NCBI GenBank assembly: GCA_022511245.1
Contig: JAFLRV010000003.1
Coordinates: forward strand, 7,559-44,990
Length of the DNA: 37,432 nucleotides
Source of the DNA: Coprobacter sp.
Lineage (GTDB): Bacteria; Bacteroidota; Bacteroidia; Bacteroidales; Coprobacteraceae
Direction: 5' to 3'
Position 1 is the stretch's first letter. Every line of letters begins with the position of its first letter. Both the position numbers and the translations under genes were made by a program. Of the stretch, positions 6,828 to 26,648 are shown in pieces. The notes beneath the pieces were generated by a model. That model ran no database searches. It worked only from the letters and a program-made list of their open reading frames with translations, and was not told the origin of the DNA.

Positions 6828-8642
6828 CTATTCTTTCTTTGATAGTGTCGAGACCAGGAGGCGGGCTTTGGCGCTTCCGATAAGCGCTGCAAGTTCTTCA
6901 AAAGGTGCGTTCTGGATTCTTTTTACACTTTTGTAATGGGTCAGCAGTTTGTTTTTGGTCTGTGTTCCAATTCCTTTCACCGAGTCCAGTACAGACGCTG
7001 TTTGCGACTTGCTGCGTTTGTCCCGGTGAAATTGAATGGCAAAACGATGCACCTCATTTTGTATATGTTCCAGTAAATGGAACAGGGGAGTCTGTTGTTT
7101 GATGCCGATAACGAGCGGCGGAAATCCGAAAAGAAGCTCCGATGTTCGATGCCGGCTGTCTTTAGCCAGTCCGGCGATAGGAATGGATAAATGAAGTTCA
7201 TCTTCGACAATCTGGCGTACGACCTCCATCTGACCTTTTCCACCGTCGGTAATAATCAGGTCCGGAAGGCCGCTCCCTTCGTTCAGCAGTCGTTGATACC
7301 GACGGCGGACAACCTCCTGCATCGAAGCGTAATCGTCGGGACCTTCTACCGTTTTGATAATGTATTTTCGGTATTCTTTTTTCGATGGCTTCGCTTTTCT
7401 GAAGACAACGCAGGCCGCTACAGCATGGCTCCCTTGTATATTTGAATTGTCGAAACATTCGATGTGCATAGGCAGTTTATCCAAACCGAGTTCTTTTTGT
7501 ATCTCTTTCATCAGACGGACGCTTTTTTGCTCCGGATTCATTTTCTCGGCATTTTTCAGTTTGTCTATTTTGTACTGCTTTACATTTTGTTCGGATATTT
7601 CGAGCAATTTTCGTTTGTCTCCTCTTTGCGGAACGATAAATGTTTTGTTCTCAAATTCAAGATTGGGAAGAAAAGGTACGATAATTTCTTTCGATTCGCT
7701 TTTGAAGCGGCTTTGCAGTTCTGCGATACCCAAGCCCAGAATGTACTCTTTTTCTTCCTCCAGCCGTTTTTTGTATTCTATGGTAAAACTTTGTACAATG
7801 GAGCCGTTGCGCACGTGCAGGTAGTTTACATATGCTGCATTTTCCTCTTCATCGTAGGAAAAAACATCGATATTGTGAATCGTCGAGCTGACAATAACCG
7901 ATTTTGCCCGGTATTTTTCGATGAGAAGGAATTTCTCTTTAATGGTTTGGGCTTCCTCGAATTTTAATTCATCCGATAATTTTTTCATTTGCTCTACCAG
8001 ATATTCGCACAACTGTTGTGTGTTTCCGTTCAATATCTGTCGTATCTGGGAGATGTATTCCATGTAATTTCCTTCGCATTCCAGCCCTTCGCAAGGCCCT
8101 TTGCAGTTTTTGATATGGTATTGGAGGCATACTTTGAATTTCTTTTTGCGGATATTTTCCGGCGTAAGGGCAAGGTGGCAGGTGCGTATCGGATAGAGGT
8201 TCCGGATGAGTTCAAGTACTGTTTTGGCCAGATGCACATTGGCGTAAGGCCCGTAATACTTGGAGCCGTCTTTGATGACTTTTCGGGTCAGAAATATGCG
8301 GGGAAAATGTTCGTTTCGTATCGTAATCCACGGATAGGTCTTATCATCTTTCAACAATACGTTGTATCGCGGTTTATATTCTTTGATGAGACTGTTTTCC
8401 AGATGTAATGCATCTTCTTCACTTTTTACGACGATATATTTTATATCGCAGATGTTTTTCACCAAAATATTCGTTTTGGCCGAGTCGTGGATTTTATTGA
8501 AATAGGAGGAGACCCGTCTCTTTAGGTTTTTGGCTTTCCCGACGTAGATGATTTTTCCCTCTTTGTCGAAATATTGGTACACTCCCGGCGTATCGGGCAG
8601 GAGGGAAAGAATGTTTTTTATATGTTCTTTTCTTTCGGTCAA
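6828..8642 (-). CDS. uvrC: Excinuclease ABC subunit C
   Basis: 604 aa. GIY-YIG domain (PGVYQYFDKEGKIIYVGKAKNLKRRVSSYF), IECFDNSNIQGSHAVAACVVF, C-terminal helix-hairpin-helix. Confidence 0.97.
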   Translation of the reverse strand: MTERKEHIKNILSLLPDTPGVYQYFDKEGKIIYVGKAKNLKRRVSSYFNKIHDSAKTNILVKNICDIKYIVVKSEEDALHLENSLIKEYKPRYNVLLKDDKTYPWITIRNEHFPRIFLTRKVIKDGSKYYGPYANVHLAKTVLELIRNLYPIRTCHLALTPENIRKKKFKVCLQYHIKNCKGPCEGLECEGNYMEYISQIRQILNGNTQQLCEYLVEQMKKLSDELKFEEAQTIKEKFLLIEKYRAKSVIVSSTIHNIDVFSYDEEENAAYVNYLHVRNGSIVQSFTIEYKKRLEEEKEYILGLGIAELQSRFKSESKEIIVPFLPNLEFENKTFIVPQRGDKRKLLEISEQNVKQYKIDKLKNAEKMNPEQKSVRLMKEIQKELGLDKLPMHIECFDNSNIQGSHAVAACVVFRKAKPSKKEYRKYIIKTVEGPDDYASMQEVVRRRYQRLLNEGSGLPDLIITDGGKGQMEVVRQIVEDELHLSIPIAGLAKDSRHRTSELLFGFPPLVIGIKQQTPLFHLLEHIQNEVHRFAIQFHRDKRSKSQTASVLDSVKGIGTQTKNKLLTHYKSVKRIQNAPFEELAALIGSAKARLLVSTLSKKE

Positions 8643-8647
8643 GACAA

Positions 8648-9172
8648 TCAGAATTTGATAAGGGCTTCCACGTCAACGCCCGGAGGAAAAATCTCCCGGC
8701 CTTTCAGAAATTCAAGTTCGGTAATGAAGTTGATGTATATTTTTCGGGGGTGAAATCGCTCTACCAGATGGTATGCGGCCAACATTGTCCCTCCGGTTGC
8801 CAGCAAATCATCGTGCAATACGACAATATCTTCGGATTGAATAGCGTCTTTATGTATTTCGATTGTATCTTTCCCGTACTCTTTGTCGTAACTTTCACTC
8901 CAGGTATCTGCCGGCAGTTTGCCGGGTTTCCGTATAGGAACAAATCCGGCTTCCAGTTGGTTCGCCAGAATGGCTCCCATTATGAACCCTCTGGATTCTA
9001 TGCCGACCACTTTGGTAATGCCTTTTTCTTTATACAGATCGGTTAGATGTTTGCTCAGCTCCCGAAGGCATTCCGGCTCTTTGAATACAGTGGTCAAATC
9101 TTTGAATACAATTCCTTTTTGGGGAAAGTCATAGACGTCTCTTACCTTATTTTTAATCTCATCTAATGTCAT
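8648..9172 (-). CDS. apt: Adenine phosphoribosyltransferase
   Basis: 174 aa. PQKGIVFKDLT, GIESRGFI and VVLHDDLLATGGTM (PRPP loop). Confidence 0.96.
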   Translation of the reverse strand: MTLDEIKNKVRDVYDFPQKGIVFKDLTTVFKEPECLRELSKHLTDLYKEKGITKVVGIESRGFIMGAILANQLEAGFVPIRKPGKLPADTWSESYDKEYGKDTIEIHKDAIQSEDIVVLHDDLLATGGTMLAAYHLVERFHPRKIYINFITELEFLKGREIFPPGVDVEALIKF

Positions 9173-9206
9173 ATCTTTCTGTTTTTCTATGGGTTGTTAT
9201 TTCTCT

Positions 9207-9222
9207 TGTTCCACGTGGAACA
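9207..9222. promoter_or_regulatory. parS: Candidate parS site (ParB binding site)
   Basis: Perfect 16-bp palindrome TGTTCCACGTGGAACA, matching the conserved bacterial parS core GTTnCACGTGnAAC. It ends one base before the mnmG stop codon (9223-9225). Confidence 0.75.
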
Positions 9223-11097
9223 TTATTTCCGGGCCAAGATAAGCAGGATGTTGATGTCGCTGGGCGATATACCCGGAATTCTCGATGCCTGTGCAATCGT
9301 TTCGGGGTTGATTCGTGCCAGTTTCTGCCGGGCTTCAATCGAAATTTGTTTAATACTATGGTAATCAAACCGGTCTTTGATTCGGATATTCTCAAGACGT
9401 CTTATCTTGTCTGCTATCAGCTGTTCCCGTTCGATATATCCCTTGTATTTTATCGAAATTTCAGCCGCCTCCATAATCTCTTCTTTCCGGTTGGGAATTT
9501 TGTCTATCTCCGTTTTAAAATCGGGAATGATATCGGCTACTGTTTTTACGTTTAATTGGGGGCGAAGGATTAAATCTATCAGTTTGATTCCCTGCTTTAA
9601 CGGGGTTGTGCCGAATTGCTCCAGCTGTGTATTTACCTGTTGTGCTTTGACTGAATAGTTTTCCGCAAATTCGATTATTCGGTCACGATGCTCTTTTTTC
9701 TCGGTTAACAGGCGGTATCGCTCCGGAGTGGCCAGCCCGATTCGGTACGACTTTTCTGTTAATCGCATGTCGGCATCATCCTGCCGCAACAAAATTCTGT
9801 ATTCGGCTCTTGAGGTAAACATCCGATAGGGTTCATCGACGCCTTTCGTAACCAAATCATCGATGAGTACACCAATATAGGCTTCGTCCCGTCCTAAAAT
9901 AAATTCGCTGTTTCCGTGACATTTCAAGTGTGCATTTATTCCGGCGATAAGACCTTGTCCGGCGGCCTCTTCATATCCGGTGGTTCCGTTAACCTGTCCG
10001 GCGAAGAAGAGGCCCGAAATGGTTTTGGTCTCCAGCGTATGCCGAAGTTGTGTCGGGTCGAAATAATCGTATTCGATAGCATATCCCGGCCGATATATCT
10101 GTATGTTCCGGAATGCCGGAATTTTTTGCAGCGCATTTAATTGAACCTCGATGGGCAGGGAGGAGGAGAAACCGTTCAGGTAAAATTCGCGGGTGGTTTC
10201 ACCTTCCGGCTCTAAAAATAATTGATGCTCTGTTTTATCGGGAAAAGTAACGATTTTGGTCTCGATGCTCGGACAATAGCGAGGTCCTATACTTTGTATT
10301 TGTCCGTTGAAAAGGGGAGAATCGGGCAGTCCTTTCCTTAAGATTTCATGAACTTCTTCATTGGTGTAGGTAATCCAGCAGCTTTGTTGCCGGAGTTTTC
10401 GGGGTTCGAAATCGAGGTAGGAAAATTTGTGGAAGTCATTTTCTCCGACTTGTTCTGTGGTCAGGCTGAAATCGATGCTCCGGCCGTCGATGCGTACCGG
10501 CGTACCGGTTTTCATCCGGCCGACAACAATCCCTTCTTCCCGCAATTGTTCGGATATCCCGTAAGACGCCGGTTCCGAGATGCGCCCTCCTGCCAGTTGT
10601 GTTTTACCGATATGCATCAGGCCGTTCATGAACGTTCCCGATGTAATAACGACCGATTTGGCGGTAAATGTCACATTCATTCCCGTGATGACACCGGTAA
10701 CCGTATGATTCCTGATAATCAGTTGTTTGACAGTGTCCTGCCACATGAAAAGATTCGGCGTATTTTCGATGATTCCGCGCCAGGTCTCTATGAATTTAAC
10801 CCGGTCGCTTTGGGCTCTCGGACTCCACATGGCCGGGCCTTTGGAGCGGTTCAGCATTCGGAACTGAATCGCCGATTTATCGGTCACGATACCGGTGAAT
10901 CCGCCCAATGCATCGATTTCCCGAACAATCTGTCCTTTGGCAATTCCTCCGATAGCCGGATTGCAGCTCATTTGGGCGATTTTGTTCATATCCATAGTGA
11001 CAAGGAGCGTTTGCGACCCCAGATTGGCGGCGGCACAGGCTGCTTCACAACCTGCATGTCCGGCTCCTATTACTATCACATCATAATCGAATTTCAT
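9223..11097 (-). CDS. mnmG: tRNA uridine-5-carboxymethylaminomethyl modification enzyme MnmG (GidA)
   Basis: 624 aa. DVIVIGAGHAGCEAACAAANLG, SCNPAIGGIAKGQIVREIDALGG and GQVNGTTGYEEAAGQGL. Confidence 0.97.
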   Translation of the reverse strand: MKFDYDVIVIGAGHAGCEAACAAANLGSQTLLVTMDMNKIAQMSCNPAIGGIAKGQIVREIDALGGFTGIVTDKSAIQFRMLNRSKGPAMWSPRAQSDRVKFIETWRGIIENTPNLFMWQDTVKQLIIRNHTVTGVITGMNVTFTAKSVVITSGTFMNGLMHIGKTQLAGGRISEPASYGISEQLREEGIVVGRMKTGTPVRIDGRSIDFSLTTEQVGENDFHKFSYLDFEPRKLRQQSCWITYTNEEVHEILRKGLPDSPLFNGQIQSIGPRYCPSIETKIVTFPDKTEHQLFLEPEGETTREFYLNGFSSSLPIEVQLNALQKIPAFRNIQIYRPGYAIEYDYFDPTQLRHTLETKTISGLFFAGQVNGTTGYEEAAGQGLIAGINAHLKCHGNSEFILGRDEAYIGVLIDDLVTKGVDEPYRMFTSRAEYRILLRQDDADMRLTEKSYRIGLATPERYRLLTEKKEHRDRIIEFAENYSVKAQQVNTQLEQFGTTPLKQGIKLIDLILRPQLNVKTVADIIPDFKTEIDKIPNRKEEIMEAAEISIKYKGYIEREQLIADKIRRLENIRIKDRFDYHSIKQISIEARQKLARINPETIAQASRIPGISPSDINILLILARK

Positions 11098-11531
11098 ATG
11101 GCTGATTTTTGTGGGGTATTTCTCATCTTCAACGCTTCATTTTCATGGATTGTCATGATTTCCCGTTCTCCTTCTCCTTTGTCGTTTATTCCGCATAGAT
11201 GGAGAATCCCGTGTATGATAATCCGGTGAATTTCTTCCTCGAATGCAACGCCGTATTCTTTGGCATTGCTCGCTACCGTATCCGTGCTGATGAAAATGTC
11301 TCCGCTGATTCGATTTCCCTGTGTGTAATCGAATGTAATAATATCTGTGTAATAGTCATGCTGGAGATATTCCCGGTTTACGGCAAGAATTTTTTCGTCA
11401 GAACAGAAAATATAGGCTATATCTCCGCATCGGTTGCCATATTTCTCCGCCACCCGGCGAATCCATTCGCTGGTTTCTCTTTTTTTTATCGCCGGGAAAT
11501 CGACCTCTTCGGCATAATAGCTGATTGCCAT
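11094..11531 (-). CDS. ybeY: Endoribonuclease YbeY
   Basis: IHRIIIHGILHLCGINDKGEGE is the H3xH5xH-type zinc motif. It overlaps mnmG by 4 bp (ATGA), suggesting coupling. Confidence 0.93.
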   Translation of the reverse strand: MAISYYAEEVDFPAIKKRETSEWIRRVAEKYGNRCGDIAYIFCSDEKILAVNREYLQHDYYTDIITFDYTQGNRISGDIFISTDTVASNAKEYGVAFEEEIHRIIIHGILHLCGINDKGEGEREIMTIHENEALKMRNTPQKSAI

Positions 11532-11663
11532 ATGATGAAATTTTTTGTATTCCGTGCGTACAAAGATAGCAATCTTTTATGGAAAAGCGCAGTGCAGAAA
11601 AACAAATACTTTGGCCAAGAGATACGGGGAGTGTTCCGGGCTATTTCTTGTGCCGCTACCTGT

Positions 11664-12896
11664 TTATCTGAAGAAAACATAGGCGGTAAGTATCGCCGCT
11701 ACGATTCCGATTAAATCGGCAAATAATCCGTATCCGGCGGCGTATCGGGTGTTTTTTATGCCTACGCTTCCGAAATAGACCGCTAAGATGTAAAAGGTGG
11801 TATCTGTGGCTCCTTGTATGGTAGAGGCGACCCGTGCAACAAAGGAGTCGGCTCCGTAGGTAGCCATAGCATCGACCATCATACCTCTGGCTCCGCTGCC
11901 GCTTAACGGTTTCATTAAAGCGGTCGGAAGGGCTCCTACAAACTCGGCATCGATGCCGCAGGCTTCGATAGCCGAAGTCATACCCGATATGATGATATTC
12001 ATGGCTCCCGATGCCCGGAATATGGCGATAGCGACCAGCATGGCCACCAGATAGGGAATAATGGTGACAGCTGTTTTGAATCCCTCTTTGGCTCCTTCAA
12101 TAAAGGCGTCGTAAATATTGATGCGTTTATATATTCCGGCTAAAATAAAGCCCGTAATAATGCTGAACAGAATGAAATTGGCTCCGAATCCGGAGTACAG
12201 AGAGACTTTTTCCTGCGGCAGTCCCATGAAAAACCAAATGATGCCGCCGATTACGGCTGTCAATCCGAAAAGTGATGAAAAAATGACTTTGTCGAATATA
12301 TTGATTTTTTGTTTCAAACAGACGGCAATAAGTCCGATTAAGGTGGAAAAATAGGTGGCGATTAAAATGGGCAGGAACACATCCGACGGATTGGCGGCTC
12401 CCATCTGAGCCCGGTATACCATGACACTCAACGGTACGAGCGTAAGTCCGGTCGTGTTCAGTACCAGAAACATAATCATCGGATTGCTGGCCGTTTCTTT
12501 GTGCGGGTTGAGCTCCTGCAGCTCTTTCATGGCTTTCAGTCCCAGCGGGGTCGCCGCATTGTCCAGTCCGAGCATATTGGCCGATACGTTCATAAAAATG
12601 GAGCCGAAAGCGGGGTGTCCTTTGGGGATGTCCGGAAACAGTTTGCCAAACAGGGGGCTTATCAGCCGGGAAAAAAAGGCAATGACGCCTCCCCGTTCTC
12701 CGATTTTCATCAGGCCCAGCCACAATGACAATACGCCGGTGAGTCCCAAAGATATTTCAAACGCCGTTTTGGCCGATGAAAAAGAGGCGTTCATGATATC
12801 TGACCATATTTCGAGATTTCCTCCGCATACGGATTGGATTACCGCAACGACAAAGGCGATAAGAAAAAAGGCAATCCAGATGTAATTTAGTACCAT
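11664..12896 (-). CDS. Fused SpmA/SpmB-like nucleoside-recognition (Gate) domain membrane protein
   Basis: 410 aa polytopic protein. N-half has MNVSANMLGLDNAATPLGLKAMKELQELN (SpmA-like); C-half has LPTALMKPLSGSGARGMMVDAM and ATDTTFYILAVYFGSVGIKNTRYA (SpmB-like). Confidence 0.85.
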   Translation of the reverse strand: MVLNYIWIAFFLIAFVVAVIQSVCGGNLEIWSDIMNASFSSAKTAFEISLGLTGVLSLWLGLMKIGERGGVIAFFSRLISPLFGKLFPDIPKGHPAFGSIFMNVSANMLGLDNAATPLGLKAMKELQELNPHKETASNPMIMFLVLNTTGLTLVPLSVMVYRAQMGAANPSDVFLPILIATYFSTLIGLIAVCLKQKINIFDKVIFSSLFGLTAVIGGIIWFFMGLPQEKVSLYSGFGANFILFSIITGFILAGIYKRINIYDAFIEGAKEGFKTAVTIIPYLVAMLVAIAIFRASGAMNIIISGMTSAIEACGIDAEFVGALPTALMKPLSGSGARGMMVDAMATYGADSFVARVASTIQGATDTTFYILAVYFGSVGIKNTRYAAGYGLFADLIGIVAAILTAYVFFR

Positions 12897-14828: not shown

Positions 14829-15581
14829 TTATGCGTTTTTACCGAATATTCTGGCAAATATAAACCGAAAAGCAAACCAGATATGCAGCGTAACGGTCGA
14901 GAATTTTCCATAATAATTCCCCATAATCGCAAACCGTTCCTTTAAAGATGCCTTCCGGTTTTGGGTGGTCATTCCTTCGTTCAGGTAATTGACCAGTATT
15001 AACCGGCTGTTGCAAAATGTCTTGGCTTTTTGCATACATCGTATGCACCAGTCGAAATCGGCGGAGAAACGGTATTGCAAATCGTAGTCGGGGGCGATGC
15101 TGCGTTTGGCGATAAACGCTTGGTGGCAGACCAGCATACCCATGCGAAACTTTTTCCAGGATAATTGTTCCGGTGCTTTTAGGCGGCGCATCCCGATAAA
15201 ATTCCGGTTCGAGTCGACCAATGCCGTTTCTCCATAAATGATATCCGGACGGGAATAACCTATCGAACGGTAAATTTGTTCCAATGTTTCATCGGAATAG
15301 AGGGTGTCGCCGGCATTCAAGAACAGTACATATTCTCCCGTTGCCAGATGAAGCCCCTTGTTCATGGCATCGTAAATGCCGTTGTCCGGTTCGCTTATCC
15401 ATTGGTTTATCCATGTCCGGTTTCGGTGGAGAAATTCTTTTGTCCCGTCTTGTGAATCGCCGTCAACGATGATGTATTCGAAGTTCGTATAAGTCTGTTC
15501 ATGTACACTTTTCAAGGTGGTTTCCAGCGCTTCCCGTGCGTTTCGGGCTACGGTGATAATGGAGAATAAGGGTTGTATCAT
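14829..15581 (-). CDS. Family 2 (GT-A) glycosyltransferase
   Basis: FSIITVARNAREALETTLKSVHEQTYTNFEYIIVDGDSQDGT and SEPDNGIYDAMNKGLHLATGEYVLFLNAGD. Confidence 0.93.
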   Translation of the reverse strand: MIQPLFSIITVARNAREALETTLKSVHEQTYTNFEYIIVDGDSQDGTKEFLHRNRTWINQWISEPDNGIYDAMNKGLHLATGEYVLFLNAGDTLYSDETLEQIYRSIGYSRPDIIYGETALVDSNRNFIGMRRLKAPEQLSWKKFRMGMLVCHQAFIAKRSIAPDYDLQYRFSADFDWCIRCMQKAKTFCNSRLILVNYLNEGMTTQNRKASLKERFAIMGNYYGKFSTVTLHIWFAFRFIFARIFGKNA

Positions 15582-16852
15582 GATTGAGATCGGATATTCA
15601 GCAGTTCTTGATAGAGCGTTCTATATTGTGACGCAATAGTTTTTTCGCTGTACTTTTTTCTGGCATTTTCGATGCATTTTTCCTGTAACGGCCGATTCCC
15701 TTTGTGCTGATATGCCCATAAAATGCCGTTGCCCAAATCGTCGGCCGACGGATATCGGGCCAGATATCCTGTTTCCAGATGGTCTATGATGTCGGTTTGT
15801 CCGCCTTGGTTGAAGGCAACCGTCAGTGTGCCGCAGGCCATAGACTCTATCAGTGTCTGGCCGAATGTCTCATAATGAGACGATACGACGGTTACATCGG
15901 CGGCCGAATATAATCCGGCGATGTCGGACATGTCCGACATCGGGCCTAAATAGGTGTATTTGCAGGGAATGGATTCGAGGAAATGGGGTGCATTTTTTAT
16001 ATTTCCGAACAGGAGCAAATGTAATTTCCCGATTTTTCTGACGGGGGCCGTATGAAGTGCCCGGCAGAGCATGTCGAAGCCTTTTATCGGGTCATTCAGT
16101 TTGGCCGCTCCGAATAAAACGACGAATTCATCGGAAGATATGGATAATTTCTGTCGGATGGTCTCCGGCTCTTGCCGGTAAAAAATATCGGTATCCAACG
16201 TGTTGGGGATAATTGCATGAGACAAATCGCCGGTCAGGGCGCTTTGCCGGGCTTTTTGTTGCAGCCATCGGCTTACACTCACAAACGTAATGTTCGACTG
16301 TCTCAGAAATTTCTTGTTTTTCCATGTCCGGAACGATAAGTCCTGAGACGACGGGTGCTGTAATTGGGGGCAGTTTCCGCAGCGATGCAGGTAACGGGTA
16401 CATGTTCCCGGATGATGACAGATACCGGTTATCGGCCATAAGTCGTGCAGGGTCCATACGACCGGTTTTCCCAAATCGCAAAGTTTTTGAATGTCGTTCA
16501 AGGACAAAAGCCCCTGGTTAATCCAATGCAGATGAATGATGTCGGCCTCTTGCACTTCCGGGCAGGAGGTCAGGTCGAATCCTGTGTTGGCGATGGAAAC
16601 GGAAAAAAGATTTTTTCGGGAATAGCGGTTATGAAAGAATATGACGAACCGTTCCCATGCAAATCTGATAAACCCGATACAGCGGGTCCGGCGATTTTTT
16701 TCGACCGCTATAATGCGGGGATGATTCGAAGATTTCTTTTTGACCAGAAGTTTTACATCGATATCTGTTTTTTGAAGTGCCGACATGAGACGGAGACAGG
16801 CAATCGCCGCCCCGCCGGTAGTTTCGTTTGTATTGACAAGCAGTACTTTCAT
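15578..16852 (-). CDS. GT4/GT-B family glycosyltransferase
   Basis: MKVLLVNTNETTGGAAIACLRLMSAL; SAADVTVVSSHYETFGQTLIESMACGTLTVAFNQGGQTDII. It overlaps the next GT by 4 bp. Confidence 0.92.
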   Translation of the reverse strand: MKVLLVNTNETTGGAAIACLRLMSALQKTDIDVKLLVKKKSSNHPRIIAVEKNRRTRCIGFIRFAWERFVIFFHNRYSRKNLFSVSIANTGFDLTSCPEVQEADIIHLHWINQGLLSLNDIQKLCDLGKPVVWTLHDLWPITGICHHPGTCTRYLHRCGNCPQLQHPSSQDLSFRTWKNKKFLRQSNITFVSVSRWLQQKARQSALTGDLSHAIIPNTLDTDIFYRQEPETIRQKLSISSDEFVVLFGAAKLNDPIKGFDMLCRALHTAPVRKIGKLHLLLFGNIKNAPHFLESIPCKYTYLGPMSDMSDIAGLYSAADVTVVSSHYETFGQTLIESMACGTLTVAFNQGGQTDIIDHLETGYLARYPSADDLGNGILWAYQHKGNRPLQEKCIENARKKYSEKTIASQYRTLYQELLNIRSQS

Positions 16853-16959
16853 AAAAACAGAAATGTAATTACTTTACGAAGATACTATTTTTTCATCTCT
16901 TTAAAATAAAGACAGTTTGAAAAAATAGTTACATTTGCATATAGATATAACCTGAGTAT

Positions 16960-17847
16960 ATGAATTATTGTTTAAACAGGATTCAGAAGTGGCTGAACGA
17001 GGGTGGGCAGACGATAGCGAGTTTGCTTAAGATTGTTCTTTATTCCAAATGGTCGGTTCCGATGCCTGCGACAATTAATACTGTCGGAGAAATCGTCATT
17101 TTGGGGAACGGTCCCTCTTTGAATGTAACGGTTGAAGACTCACCGGCTTTTTTGCGAAACAAGATGTTGCTGGCGGTTAATTTCGCCGGTTCGACCGAAT
17201 TGTTCCGGCAGTTGTGTCCCGGATTGTATGTTTTGGCTGACCCCTATTTTTTCGATGCTTCGAAAGATAAGTCGGTCGAGCTGTACCGGATGCTGGCCGA
17301 CACAGTGACTTGGGAAATGTATCTTTTTGTTCCGGTAACCTCCCGGAAAAGAAAGTGGTGGCAAGAGATATTGAGCACCAATCCGCATATTCATATCGTT
17401 ATGTACAATACCACTCCGGTGGAGGGATACAGGTGGTTTACCCGGCTGGCTTTTCGCAAAGGGTGGGGTTCGCCTCGTCCCCGCAATGTTTTGATTCCCT
17501 CCATTATGCTGGCGTTGCGTTTGGGATTCAAGAAGATATATCTGGCCGGAGCCGACCATTCGTGGCTTCCCGGCTTGTCGGTGAATGATGCCAATCAGGT
17601 GATTACCCGCCAGCCGCATTTTTATAAAGACAGCGAACAGCACAATAAGCAGGTCGATGCACAATATGCCCATATTCATTTGCATGAAGTTTTGTACAGC
17701 ATGTATATTGCGTTCAGGTCATATTTTATTATCCGGGATTATGCCGAATATGTGGGGACTAAAATTGTAAATATTACGCCGGGTTCTTATATCGATGCTT
17801 TTGAGCGGGAAGTTCCCGAACGGAGTGAGCCGGGTCGCATTTTTTGA
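16960..17847 (+). CDS. GNGPSL-motif protein resembling GT42 sialyltransferases/DUF115; putative nonulosonic-acid transferase
   Basis: 295 aa. EIVILGNGPSL near the N-terminus (17104-17121) and later RNVLIPSIMLALRLGFKKIYLAGADHSW, similar in layout to GT42 (CstII-like) IAGNGPSL...AVAIALGYKEIYLSGIDFY. Adjacent to a NeuA-like gene. Confidence 0.6.
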   Translation: MNYCLNRIQKWLNEGGQTIASLLKIVLYSKWSVPMPATINTVGEIVILGNGPSLNVTVEDSPAFLRNKMLLAVNFAGSTELFRQLCPGLYVLADPYFFDASKDKSVELYRMLADTVTWEMYLFVPVTSRKRKWWQEILSTNPHIHIVMYNTTPVEGYRWFTRLAFRKGWGSPRPRNVLIPSIMLALRLGFKKIYLAGADHSWLPGLSVNDANQVITRQPHFYKDSEQHNKQVDAQYAHIHLHEVLYSMYIAFRSYFIIRDYAEYVGTKIVNITPGSYIDAFEREVPERSEPGRIF

Positions 17848-17867
17848 TAGATTTATCAGGATAGGGT

Positions 17868-18575
17868 ATGAATGAAAAAATGAAAATATTGTATGTTATT
17901 ACCGCTCGTGGCGGAAGTCGGGGGATTCCCCGTAAGAATATCAAATCGCTGGGCGGTAAGCCGTTGATTGCCTATTCCGTCGAGCTGGCCCGCAGTTTGA
18001 GTGCCGATGAGGATATTTGCGTGTCGACCGATGATGAAGAGATTATTCGTGTGGTCGAAGGATTGGGGCTGCATGTCCCGTTCCGCAGACCGGCCGAGCT
18101 GTCGGGAGACCATTCCGGTTCATATGAAGTTTTGCTGCATGCCCTCGATTATTACGAAAGCATAGGCCGGCATTATGATGTCATGGTTTTGTTGCAGCCG
18201 ACCTCTCCTTTTCGGAAAGAGTCTTTTGTTCGTGAAGCGCTGGAGTTGTATACGCCCGATATAGATATGGTCGTATCGGTTCGGGCGGCGGCATCGAATC
18301 CCTATTATCATTGCTATAAAGAGGGAAATGACAGTTTTCTGCAACCTGTCATGGGCGATGTGAGGTTTACCCGGCGGCAGGATGCGCCTCCGGTGTGGGA
18401 GCATAACGGTTCCATCTATGTCATTAATACCTCCTCTCTTCGAAAAATGAGTTTGGGTGAGTTTACCCGTTGCCGCAAATATGTGATGGACGACATGTAT
18501 TCTGTCGATTTGGATACGCTTTTCGACTGGAAGGTGGCCGAACTGTTGTTGCGGGAGAAACTGGTGTCTCTTTAA
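17868..18575 (+). CDS. Acylneuraminate/nonulosonate cytidylyltransferase (CMP-NulO synthetase, NeuA/PseF/LegF type)
   Basis: ILYVITARGGSRGIPRKNIKSLGGKPLIAYSVELA, VSTDDEEI, LLQPTSPFR and WEHNGSIYVI; 235 aa. Sugar specificity cannot be resolved by eye. Initiation could be at ATG 17868 or at the second Met (17880). Confidence 0.88.
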   Translation: MNEKMKILYVITARGGSRGIPRKNIKSLGGKPLIAYSVELARSLSADEDICVSTDDEEIIRVVEGLGLHVPFRRPAELSGDHSGSYEVLLHALDYYESIGRHYDVMVLLQPTSPFRKESFVREALELYTPDIDMVVSVRAAASNPYYHCYKEGNDSFLQPVMGDVRFTRRQDAPPVWEHNGSIYVINTSSLRKMSLGEFTRCRKYVMDDMYSVDLDTLFDWKVAELLLREKLVSL

Positions 18576-18585
18576 TCGCCGGGTG

Positions 18586-20052
18586 TCATCTCCACGAAAT
18601 CTTACTTTGTGCGTATTTTTGTATGTCTTTTAAGATGCGGGAATTCATTTTTCTGTTGATAATGTAATACAACAGCAATCCGGTCGCACTTTGCAGGATG
18701 AGCAGCAGCCAGTCCGGACGGATGATGGCGGGCAGCAGCAGCATCGGAATCGATACGAGTACGGTGATGGCGAAATAGGGTATCATGTCCCGGATTTGTC
18801 GGATGACACTGTATTGTAGAATGTTGCCGCTGACGTAGGCCATCAGACAATAATGCAGTATGCTGACAATGACTTGCCCCCATACCAGTGCTGTAATTCC
18901 CATTTTCAGTGTAATCCAGATGGCGGCCAGAGAACACAGGTCTTTTATGATTTCGAGATAAAACATAATTTTGACTTTACCCACTCCTAAAATGCAGTTG
19001 TTGAGAAATACGGTTAAGGTGGTAAAGATTCCCCGAAATACAAGCAGTTGAAAGAGCAGTATGGCGGGGTCCCATTTATGTCCGAACAATGTTCTGAACA
19101 ATGGTTCGGCGATGATAATAAGGAAGATGTATGCCGGAAATACGATGAACGAAGTGAATTTGTTCATTTTGCCGATTGTCCGGTGCAGCCGTTCCCGGTT
19201 GTCTTGCATATTGGACAGCACCGGAAGGAAAGAGGAGCCTATGATTTGCCCCAAAGCGGTAATCCCCATTTTGCTCCATTTGTCGGCCTGCGTATAGTAG
19301 CCCAATTGTTTCAGGTTGTAGCGGGCGCCGATAATGAAAGAATAGATGTTGAGGAACAGGGTATTGAGCAGCGATGTCAACATTACGCCCGAACCCACCT
19401 TAAATATTTCAGACAGGGCTTTTTTGCTGAATGTCCACGACGGTCTCCATGTCGTATATTTCCATAATATTGCCGATTTCACCGAAGAAAGTGCCAGTGC
19501 CTGAGCTACCATCGCCCACGCCCCGAATCCTTTCAGTGCCATGACCAGTGCTATGATTCCGGAGATAAACAGACCGGCTGTATTGGCAAATACGATGGGT
19601 TTGGCGTTCATGGCTCTCATCAGCTTGGCCGTTTGTACCATTCCCAATGCCAGTATGATAAAGTTCAGAAACATGATGCGGGAAATGGCAATCAGGCGGT
19701 TGTCGTGAAAAATATTGGCGATGAGAGGTGCAGAGAACCACAAAATGACATATAGAATGATGCTGACTCCGATGTTGAAAAAGAAAACCGTGCTGAAATC
19801 GGTTTGGGTCGCATGTTTTTTCTGAATGAGGGCCGATGAGAATCCGCTGTCGATAAATAAATTGGCAAAAGCCGAAAATACGGCAACGGCACCGATGAGA
19901 CCGAAATCTTCAGGCATGAGGACTTGAGCCAGCACAATTCCGGTAATCGCATACAGGATTTGGGTGGCTATACGGTCTATGGTATTCCACATCAAAGTAT
20001 CGGCCGTTTTTGTCTTTAGGTCGATATTCTCGCTATGAGGCTCTTTTTCCAT
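18586..20052 (-). CDS. Polysaccharide/oligosaccharide flippase (Wzx/MOP superfamily)
   Basis: 488 aa polytopic. TADTLMWNTIDRIATQILYAITGIVLAQVLMPEDFGLIGAVAVFSAFANLFIDSGFSSALIQKK is characteristic of WzxC-like proteins. Confidence 0.92.
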   Translation of the reverse strand: MEKEPHSENIDLKTKTADTLMWNTIDRIATQILYAITGIVLAQVLMPEDFGLIGAVAVFSAFANLFIDSGFSSALIQKKHATQTDFSTVFFFNIGVSIILYVILWFSAPLIANIFHDNRLIAISRIMFLNFIILALGMVQTAKLMRAMNAKPIVFANTAGLFISGIIALVMALKGFGAWAMVAQALALSSVKSAILWKYTTWRPSWTFSKKALSEIFKVGSGVMLTSLLNTLFLNIYSFIIGARYNLKQLGYYTQADKWSKMGITALGQIIGSSFLPVLSNMQDNRERLHRTIGKMNKFTSFIVFPAYIFLIIIAEPLFRTLFGHKWDPAILLFQLLVFRGIFTTLTVFLNNCILGVGKVKIMFYLEIIKDLCSLAAIWITLKMGITALVWGQVIVSILHYCLMAYVSGNILQYSVIRQIRDMIPYFAITVLVSIPMLLLPAIIRPDWLLLILQSATGLLLYYIINRKMNSRILKDIQKYAQSKISWR

Positions 20053-20150
20053 CTGTTGCGCAAAATAACAATATATTTTTCAATCTTTTTCGAAAAATAG
20101 AATTAAAGTACATCTTTATATTATATATTTACCGTTAAAAAGAGCGATAT

Positions 20151-21440
20151 ATGAAAATTCTGGTCTCTACCCCGACGCTGTGCCATCCCGATTTCCCGCA
20201 TTCGCCCAATACCGGTTTCGGGATTATGGTCTCCTGTATAGCTGAAGCTTTGGGAAAAGCCGGGCAAAAGGTATATGTCAACAACTCCTCTTTTTTCGGA
20301 CCGTCATCGGAGCGGCTGGGATATCATCTGTTGCAGCGCAAACTGCGGGTCTTGCTGTTTTCATCCAGAATCAAAGACGTAGTACGGGGATTCCGGTATG
20401 CTTTTCTGGCACGGACGCAATCGTGGTGGACACGATACAATATTTTCAAATATTATGTGAGTATCGGTTATAACGAGCGGGTAATCCGGCAGATTGCCCC
20501 CGATCATATACATATAAACGGACTGACCTTGAGTACGCTGCCTTTTCTTGTAGCGGCTGTCAGAACGGGCTTCCCGTTTACCGTCACGCTGCACGGGTTA
20601 AATTCGTTGGATGATTCTGTCGCTCTGTCTCCCTTTTTGAAAGCGTATGAATTTCGGATGCTGCGCTTGCTGCTTGAAAATCAGGTGCAGGTTTCCATTG
20701 TCAGTTCCGGAGGATTCCGGAAGATTGTGAACCGGTTCGGCGGGAAACACTATCCGACATTGAGTGTCGTTTTAAATTCCGTTTCTCCGATTCGGCGCAC
20801 TTATCCCGATGTGCCGAGAAAAAAACGGATTCTTTGCGTCGGGAATATAGACCGGCGAAAGAATCAGGCACAGCTGGTGCGGGCTGTTGCCCTGTTGAAA
20901 GACCGGACGGATTTTGATGTCTTTTTCATCGGGAATGATAATCTGAACGGGGAAGTGCAACTTTTAGCACAACGATTGGGGGTGAGTGACCGGTGTCATT
21001 TTACCGGAACGCTGCCGCATGAAGAGGTTTTTTCGATGATGAATGAGGCTTGGTGCACCTGTTTGTTGAGCAAAGACGAGGGTTTTGGACTTTCTTTTAT
21101 CGAGGGTTATTGTTTTGGTCTTCCGGCCATCTGTTTTGCCGATATCGATGCCGTTTCCGATATTTCTGACGAACGGTGCACCCTATTGATAGAAGAACGA
21201 ACCGATGAGGCTGTTTCCGGGTCGATTTCATCGGTTTTTGACCGGGACTGGGACCGGGACTATATCCGGCTCTTTTCCCGCCGGTTTTCGCCCGATATAT
21301 TGTCTGACGCTTATCTCTCGTTGTTCAAGGCTGCTCCTGCTGCATCTTTGACAGAGCCGGAGATTTGCCGACTGATGGATGATTATATGGCGCTGGGGTG
21401 GAGTAAAAAGAATTTTGAAAAAGCCGAACCGGTTTGTTGA
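20151..21440 (+). CDS. GT4-type glycosyltransferase
   Basis: RKKRILCVGNIDRRKNQAQLVRAVALLK and CTCLLSKDEGFGLSFIEGYCFGLPAICF. Confidence 0.9.
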   Translation: MKILVSTPTLCHPDFPHSPNTGFGIMVSCIAEALGKAGQKVYVNNSSFFGPSSERLGYHLLQRKLRVLLFSSRIKDVVRGFRYAFLARTQSWWTRYNIFKYYVSIGYNERVIRQIAPDHIHINGLTLSTLPFLVAAVRTGFPFTVTLHGLNSLDDSVALSPFLKAYEFRMLRLLLENQVQVSIVSSGGFRKIVNRFGGKHYPTLSVVLNSVSPIRRTYPDVPRKKRILCVGNIDRRKNQAQLVRAVALLKDRTDFDVFFIGNDNLNGEVQLLAQRLGVSDRCHFTGTLPHEEVFSMMNEAWCTCLLSKDEGFGLSFIEGYCFGLPAICFADIDAVSDISDERCTLLIEERTDEAVSGSISSVFDRDWDRDYIRLFSRRFSPDILSDAYLSLFKAAPAASLTEPEICRLMDDYMALGWSKKNFEKAEPVC

Positions 21441-25082: not shown

Positions 25083-26588
25083 TTACCGATTCATGGCCAG
25101 CATTTCTTCGATCATTTCCCGTTGGTTCGACAGTCGGGGAATTTTATGTTGTCCTCCCAGTTTCCCTTTTTCTTTCAGCCAGTCGTGGAACAGATTTTTA
25201 CGGGCGACAATGATTTCGAGCCGGTCCAAAGCAATACCTTTGTACCGTTTGGCTTCGTAATCGGAATTGAGGGACTGGAGTGTGGCATCCAGAATCTGGG
25301 CAAACTGTTCCAAAGAACAGGGCATTTTTTCAAATTCGATGAGCCATTGATGACGGCCTTTCCCTTTTCCGGACATATAGACGGGTGCCGCCGTGTAGTT
25401 GGAGATTTCGGCTCCGGTCTCGGCGCAGGTTCGAGCCAGTCCTTTTTCTGCGTTGTCGACCATCAGTTCTTCACCGAACGCATTTATAAAATGTTTGGTG
25501 CGTCCCGATACGATTACTTTTACCGGATGGGTCGATACTATTTTTACCGTATCGCCGGTCTGGTATCTCCATAATCCGCTGTTGGTGGTAATGACCAGTG
25601 CATAGTTTTTCCCTGTCTCGATTTCCCAAATCGGGAGCGTTCGGGGATACTCCTTGTTGATTTCTTCTATCGGAATAAATTCAAAAAATATGCCCAAGTC
25701 AAGCATCAGCAGCATACCGGGAGATGAATCGTTCTGTATGGCGAAAAATCCTTCGGACGCATTGTATGTCTCGACATAGTGCATCCGGGAAGAGGGGATG
25801 AGTTCTTGATATTGAGTCCGATACGGTTCAAAACTAATTCCTCCGTGAAAAAAGACTTCCAAATCGGGCCATATTTCGGTTAAGTATTTTTTTCCGCTTT
25901 TGTGAAGCAGTTGTTTGATTAAAACAAGAAACCATGAAGGAACTCCCGACAGGCTGGTGACGTGCGAATGGAGCGTCTTTTCACATATTGCATCCAGCTT
26001 CGCTTCCCATTCCGGCATCAGGGCAATTTTTTTGTCCGGGATGCGAATCAAGTCGGCCAACGGATTGATATTTTGGATAAGCACGGCCGACAAATCTCCG
26101 CAACGGCAACGGGCCGACAGGTTGCTGATATCGTGACTGCCGCCCAGAATCAACCCTTTGCCTGAAAAGAAGCGGCTTTCGGGGTTCATTTGCAGGTAAA
26201 GGGCAATGCAGTCTTTCCCTCCGCGATAGTGACACTCGTGCATCGCTTCGGTGCTGACGGGGATAAATTTACTTTTATCGTTCGTTGTGCCCGACGACTT
26301 GGCAAACCATCGTATTTTGGAGGGCCATGTCAGGTTTGTTTCTCCTTTCTGCAACCGCTCCACATAGGGTTTCAGCTCTTCGTATGTGATTAAAGGTACC
26401 TGTTCCGAAAATTGAGTATAATTGGAAATGTCCGCAAAACGAAATTGCTGTCCCAGTTCTGTATTTCGGGCTTTTTTCAATAGATTGTCGAGTTGCCGGG
26501 TCTGAAATTCCTGTCCGTATTGGCTATAAAGAGCAATCTCTTTTTGCCGGGCTGTAAAAATACGGGACAGAATTTTGGTTGTATTCAT
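25083..26588 (-). CDS. GH3 auxin-responsive promoter family protein (acyl-acid amido synthetase-like)
   Basis: KIRWFAKSSGTTNDKSKFIPVS (ATP/AMP-binding motif), NASEGFFAIQND, LWRYQTGDTVKIVSTHPVKVIVSGRTKHFINAFGEELM. ATG 26588 (MNTTKILSRIF) preferred over 26648. Confidence 0.9.
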   Translation of the reverse strand: MNTTKILSRIFTARQKEIALYSQYGQEFQTRQLDNLLKKARNTELGQQFRFADISNYTQFSEQVPLITYEELKPYVERLQKGETNLTWPSKIRWFAKSSGTTNDKSKFIPVSTEAMHECHYRGGKDCIALYLQMNPESRFFSGKGLILGGSHDISNLSARCRCGDLSAVLIQNINPLADLIRIPDKKIALMPEWEAKLDAICEKTLHSHVTSLSGVPSWFLVLIKQLLHKSGKKYLTEIWPDLEVFFHGGISFEPYRTQYQELIPSSRMHYVETYNASEGFFAIQNDSSPGMLLMLDLGIFFEFIPIEEINKEYPRTLPIWEIETGKNYALVITTNSGLWRYQTGDTVKIVSTHPVKVIVSGRTKHFINAFGEELMVDNAEKGLARTCAETGAEISNYTAAPVYMSGKGKGRHQWLIEFEKMPCSLEQFAQILDATLQSLNSDYEAKRYKGIALDRLEIIVARKNLFHDWLKEKGKLGGQHKIPRLSNQREMIEEMLAMNR

Positions 26589-26617
26589 TTTGCTTAAAAT
26601 GATTCGGTACTTTATGA

Positions 26618-26648
26618 CAAAATTAGCGAATAATATGTGCCATTGCAA
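26618..26648 (-). promoter_or_regulatory. Predicted Bacteroidetes-type promoter for the GH3 gene
   Basis: Minus strand: TTG (26648-26646), 20 bp, TAATTTTG (26625-26618). This matches TTG-N19-21-TAnnTTTG and lies 29 bp upstream of ATG 26588. Confidence 0.55.

Follow-up and report, generated by a model that had tools for sequence, protein, structure and literature searches.

A predicted chromosomal parS site beside mnmG in a Coprobacter genome and its conservation in Bacteroidota

The original survey of parS sites, from which the consensus was taken, is reportedly that of Livny et al. from 2007. The chromosomal parS consensus is TGTTTCACGTGAAACA (reviewed in PMC7333895), and additional parS sites in Pseudomonas and Caulobacter are tolerated only if they fall within about 600 kb around the native site or the origin (PMC7333895). 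A related palindrome, the Noc-binding site (NBS) of nucleoid occlusion in Firmicutes, is read by a ParB paralogue, and a specificity study reports that parS readers carry R173 and G201 whereas Noc carries Q173 and R201 (PMC7383237). In gut bacteria including Bacteroides caecimuris, a Hi-C study places parS clusters at the origin crossing (PMC10197239).

The window, i.e., the whole stretch of Coprobacter sp. DNA that was analyzed (37,432 nucleotides), contains the perfect 16-bp palindrome TGTTCCACGTGGAACA at 9207-9222, to which no strand is assigned. Positions 9208-9221 match the 14-bp parS core GTTnCACGTGnAAC exactly, and the palindrome is predicted to be a parS site from its sequence, uniqueness and positional conservation. 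It lies in the gap between mnmG and apt, which is exactly 50 bp long (9173-9222), with the mnmG stop codon ending at 9223 and the apt start codon at 9172. The preliminary description had given the same palindrome and the same gap length, and both were found as described, with the gene names mnmG and apt backed by NCBIfam. The 3' end of mnmG (gidA; 9223-11097, minus strand; TIGR00136, 814 bits against a cut-off of 525) abuts the palindrome, and the next genes downstream are apt, encoding adenine phosphoribosyltransferase (8648-9172, minus strand; TIGR01090 above cut-off), and then uvrC (6828-8642, minus strand; TIGR00194). Upstream of mnmG lies ybeY (11094-11531, minus strand; TIGR00043), an arrangement found in the source genome and in many related loci. 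The order mnmG-parS-apt-uvrC is conserved in relatives, although apt is not beside the palindrome in many of them.

Elsewhere in the window, glycosyltransferase, cytidylyltransferase-like and flippase-like genes, named by eye from their translations, stand amid housekeeping genes at 14829-21440 and together resemble a surface polysaccharide cluster. This region includes a 295-aa protein without a Pfam match (16960-17847). A GH3-family protein, i.e., of the family of plant auxin-conjugating enzymes, is encoded at 25083-26648.

The window holds a single exact copy of GTTNCACGTGNAAC, and the runner-up differs by two mismatches; the preliminary description had likewise noticed no second palindrome of this type there. 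At up to three mismatches the matches in the window equal the chance expectation (14 observed, 12.6 expected). In the 2.18 Mb draft genome, GTTnCACGTGnAAC is found at one place alone, even when one mismatch is allowed; the genome-wide scan proposed in the preliminary description thus returned one site and not a scattered motif. The draft consists of 235 contigs, and more parS sites may be absent from the assembly. Base composition predicts 0.002 exact matches for the window and 0.13 for the genome.

Conservation of the site next to mnmG in relatives had also been put forward as a check. In a sample of 60 relatives from the order, the exact site was found in 53, a match to mnmG in 55 and a match to ParB in 57. 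Among the sites listed for 45 of these genomes, 64 of 75 are no more than 300 bp from mnmG, and 44 of these 45 motif-bearing genomes have at least one such site. Five genomes lack mnmG (G013, G018, G022, G048 and G058, in agreement with TIGR00136), and all five are among the seven without an exact site, an overlap with a chance of 21 in 5.46 million (hypergeometric, calculated by hand). We also collected 198 Bacteroidota loci with readable flanks, drawn from 80 named, 30 order and 89 phylum loci whose species partly overlap. For 180 of the 198, an exact site lies no more than 250 bp from mnmG, while the reversed control pattern gave none; the palindrome is conserved beside mnmG beyond chance. 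Some of the remaining 18 loci have a one-mismatch or displaced site, and a few have none. Sites are densest just downstream of mnmG, at 2.0 per kb over the first 500 bp, compared with 0.97 per kb over the corresponding 500 bp upstream, and their density falls to near zero past a few kb. In Chryseobacterium and many others outside Bacteroidales the site flanks mnmG on both sides; one Chryseobacterium vrystaatense genome contains just two sites, both of which flank mnmG, and that of B. fragilis (G060) has one exact site in total. All five genomes compared within the genus share the same twelve core bases, while the two free positions vary and the flanks diverge.

Several genomes depart from this pattern. 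Genome G022 (2.7 Mb, 40 contigs, 99% complete) has ParB but lacks both mnmG and an exact parS; the contig with mnmG and parS may be absent from the assembly, or the two may have been lost together. In G059, the mnmG contig carries six one-mismatch parS-like sites and no exact one (C112, 922-7686), possibly a centromere array that has degenerated or been re-specified. One MAG of the Paludibacteraceae lacks a site adjacent to mnmG but has four exact ones 3.6-4.9 kb downstream of it (L041, about 11424-12750), which indicates that parS can move within this neighbourhood. In G002, the second parS (L010, 1501-1514) lies inside a putative SAM methyltransferase gene, 13.7 kb from the mnmG site, so sites can sit in coding sequence.

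These comparisons also bear on other explanations of the palindrome. It can fold into a 6-bp stem and a 4-nt loop, and a pattern scan flags it as terminator-like on the plus strand, as might be expected of an RNA hairpin acting between mnmG and apt as terminator, attenuator or mRNA stabilizer in an operon. However, mnmG-apt transcription runs on the strand opposite to the one with the flagged T-rich tail, shuffled sequences fold as well as the region does (z -0.74), and sites also occur upstream of mnmG and in tandem. Read in the sense of mnmG, the 3' sites include 40 C..A variants, which are unpaired in RNA, versus 26 T..G variants, which would form a U-G wobble; the corresponding numbers at 5' sites are 16 and 14. 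Because C..A variants are as common as those compatible with U-G pairing, as a dyad read in duplex DNA would show, the palindrome is a DNA site and not an RNA hairpin. We therefore rejected an intrinsic terminator or other RNA hairpin, whose stem is not conserved as RNA pairs and whose T-tract is not on the transcribed strand, and consider it very unlikely.

An operator for a transcription factor of apt or mnmG, independent of ParB, would suit a palindromic, intergenic site with a G-box-like CACGTG core. Yet the gene downstream changes (apt, uvrC or others) while the site persists, the site occurs on either side of mnmG and, in G002, within another gene, and its sequence equals the known parS consensus in a group where ParB is present in nearly all sampled relatives. 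This makes such an operator highly improbable. A chance palindrome has nothing in its favor beyond the single occurrence in the genome; only about 2e-6 exact matches are expected in this gap, and conservation at the same place across the phylum refutes chance, the probability of which is vanishingly small.

The preliminary description had made its proposal depend on ParB being present in the genome, and a parA-parB operon was found outside the window on contig C89. ParB_N, HTH_ParB and AAA_31 are all above the Pfam cut-offs in parA-parB, TIGR00180 is above its cut-off for ParB, and the nearest solved relative of ParB is Spo0J (1vz0). The ParB sequence, which is truncated by the end of the contig, contains the motifs GERRFRA and ENIQR and has the helix-turn-helix region GKKRATIANYLRLLK...GHAR. 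Assigned by spacing in Caulobacter numbering, it has G170, K171, R173, N178, G201 and R204, i.e., the parS-type set, with K and not S at position 172. Position 184 is also K, which has been described as permissive (PMC7383237). Reading the palindrome as an NBS was rejected, as the core is the parS one, ParB has R173/G201 and not Q173/R201, and the contig-truncated protein scores 240 bits in the Noc model, below the cut-off of 315.

We consider it very probable that the palindrome is a chromosomal parS of this Bacteroidales genome and a ParB nucleation site. The claim of a nucleation site in the origin domain, made when the palindrome was first noticed, is supported by parAB, by the uniqueness of the site, by its conservation at mnmG and by the GC skew of relatives, while binding is deduced. 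By analogy with well-studied ParABS systems, we infer binding, CTP-clamp spreading and segregation. A ParB dimer would dock on both half-sites through its helix-turn-helix and next load as a CTP clamp onto the flanking DNA, with CTP-dependent sliding. ParA, encoded beside ParB elsewhere on the chromosome, would then move the complex so that newly copied origin regions separate.

As the source genome is a 235-contig draft, the distance to the origin comes from relatives. GC skew was sampled by 20-kb stretches in two complete genomes, G002 of the same genus and B. fragilis G060. In G002, the skew turns from minus to plus near 2.29 Mb with the cumulative minimum at 2.297 Mb; the two parS sites follow at 2.362 and 2.375 Mb and parB at 2.525 Mb, and dnaA lies at 0.1 kb. 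In B. fragilis, the skew turns at about 4.49 Mb with the cumulative minimum at 4.493 Mb, and the only exact site is at 4.597 Mb and dnaA at 3.64 Mb. The suggested comparison with the GC-skew origin thus places parS 65-105 kb from the skew minimum and about 1 Mb from dnaA in both relatives, i.e., in the origin domain and not at the origin itself. This distance fits within the tolerance zone of about 600 kb in Pseudomonas and Caulobacter. A long distance between oriC and dnaA is common in Bacteroidetes (PMC4755523) and amounts to about 1 Mb here, which explains why dnaA is missing from the window.

The skew minima of the two relatives fall in the same gene block (L229, G002:C1:2297421-2300057; L237, G060:C1:4492938-4497576), with genes named by eye as quinolinate synthase-like (nadA-like), SpoU-type methylase-like, small secreted and radical-SAM-like. 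DnaA-box-like 9-mers with one mismatch are densest there at a scale of 3 kb (6/63 in G002 and 9/81 in G060). This block is a candidate oriC of Bacteroidales.

A search for ScpA (PF02616) gave no match in any of 31 Bacteroidales genomes, the source genome included, while the controls gave a match in 9 of 14. SMC_prok_B had no match above cut-off in the same 31 genomes, in which sub-cut-off Smc-like proteins are possible. The combination of Smc and ScpAB that characterizes an SMC-ScpAB loading site was thus not found. Given that these Bacteroidales lack ScpA and a clear Smc, ParB is not expected to load canonical SMC-ScpAB. The apparent absence of ScpA and of any clear Smc from the 31 genomes is, as judged from family models, new here. 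The Hi-C study likewise found no known condensin in two Bacteroidetes (PMC10197239). ParABS is nearly universal in these Bacteroidales despite the missing ScpA and SMC_prok_B.

The remaining question is why the site is beside mnmG. In other phyla, mnmG is often part of an origin-proximal mnmG-rsmG-parAB cluster. The simplest account is that Bacteroidota inherited parS at mnmG and kept it, and it is reasonably probable that parAB and dnaA moved off and left parS at mnmG, an ancestral origin-proximal cluster being the most likely source. A selective reason for the mnmG address is possible. Selection instead of inertia might keep the centromere there if ParB nucleation couples segregation to expression of mnmG, which functions in tRNA wobble modification, or to the gene order of the origin domain, with ParB working without SMC-ScpAB; we find this rather unlikely. 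The very strong, phylum-wide retention of the site at one gene could also mean that parS doubles as a local regulator, where ParB spreading tunes expression of mnmG and apt and thereby holds the site at mnmG. In other bacteria, spreading ParB can influence neighbouring genes. However, origin-proximal, single-copy sites fit partition well without regulation, and we assign such a role a low probability. It is compatible with the palindrome being parS and does not exclude it.

The parS site is itself an ordinary bacterial centromere element of a known kind, and the interest lies in its fixed address. While dnaA, oriC and parAB have drifted apart in Bacteroidota, parS remains no more than a few hundred bases from mnmG. 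The mnmG-parS pair could therefore serve as a simple marker of the origin domain in genomes and metagenome bins from Bacteroidota when dnaA is a misleading guide. In Bacteroides it offers a site at which the origin could readily be labelled through ParB, and it provides a natural test of what keeps a centromere in position. Additionally, without ScpA or a clear Smc, Bacteroidales would suit the study of ParB-parS without canonical condensin loading. What appears new, from the positions of the predicted sites, is that parS is locked to mnmG throughout the phylum and lies apart from parAB. We do not claim priority, as our literature search, which found no reported parS-mnmG link in Bacteroidota, was limited, did not include the main 2007 survey and is not proof that the link is unreported.

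Compared with known systems, the site shares with chromosomal parS of ParABS the 14-bp core, the palindrome, one or few copies, a place in the origin domain and parAB in the genome. It differs in that it is not by parAB or dnaA, is fixed at mnmG, and belongs to a genome in which no clear Smc-ScpAB was found. The parS clusters of Bacteroides caecimuris and Muribaculum intestinale have the same consensus and served to place the origin, and the accessible part of that study makes no mention of a link to mnmG (PMC10197239). The oriC of E. coli, with its start about 110 bp upstream of mnmG, is likewise an origin element by this gene. However, the element at mnmG in Bacteroidota is the predicted parS, and 65-105 kb separate it from the skew minimum in the two genomes compared.
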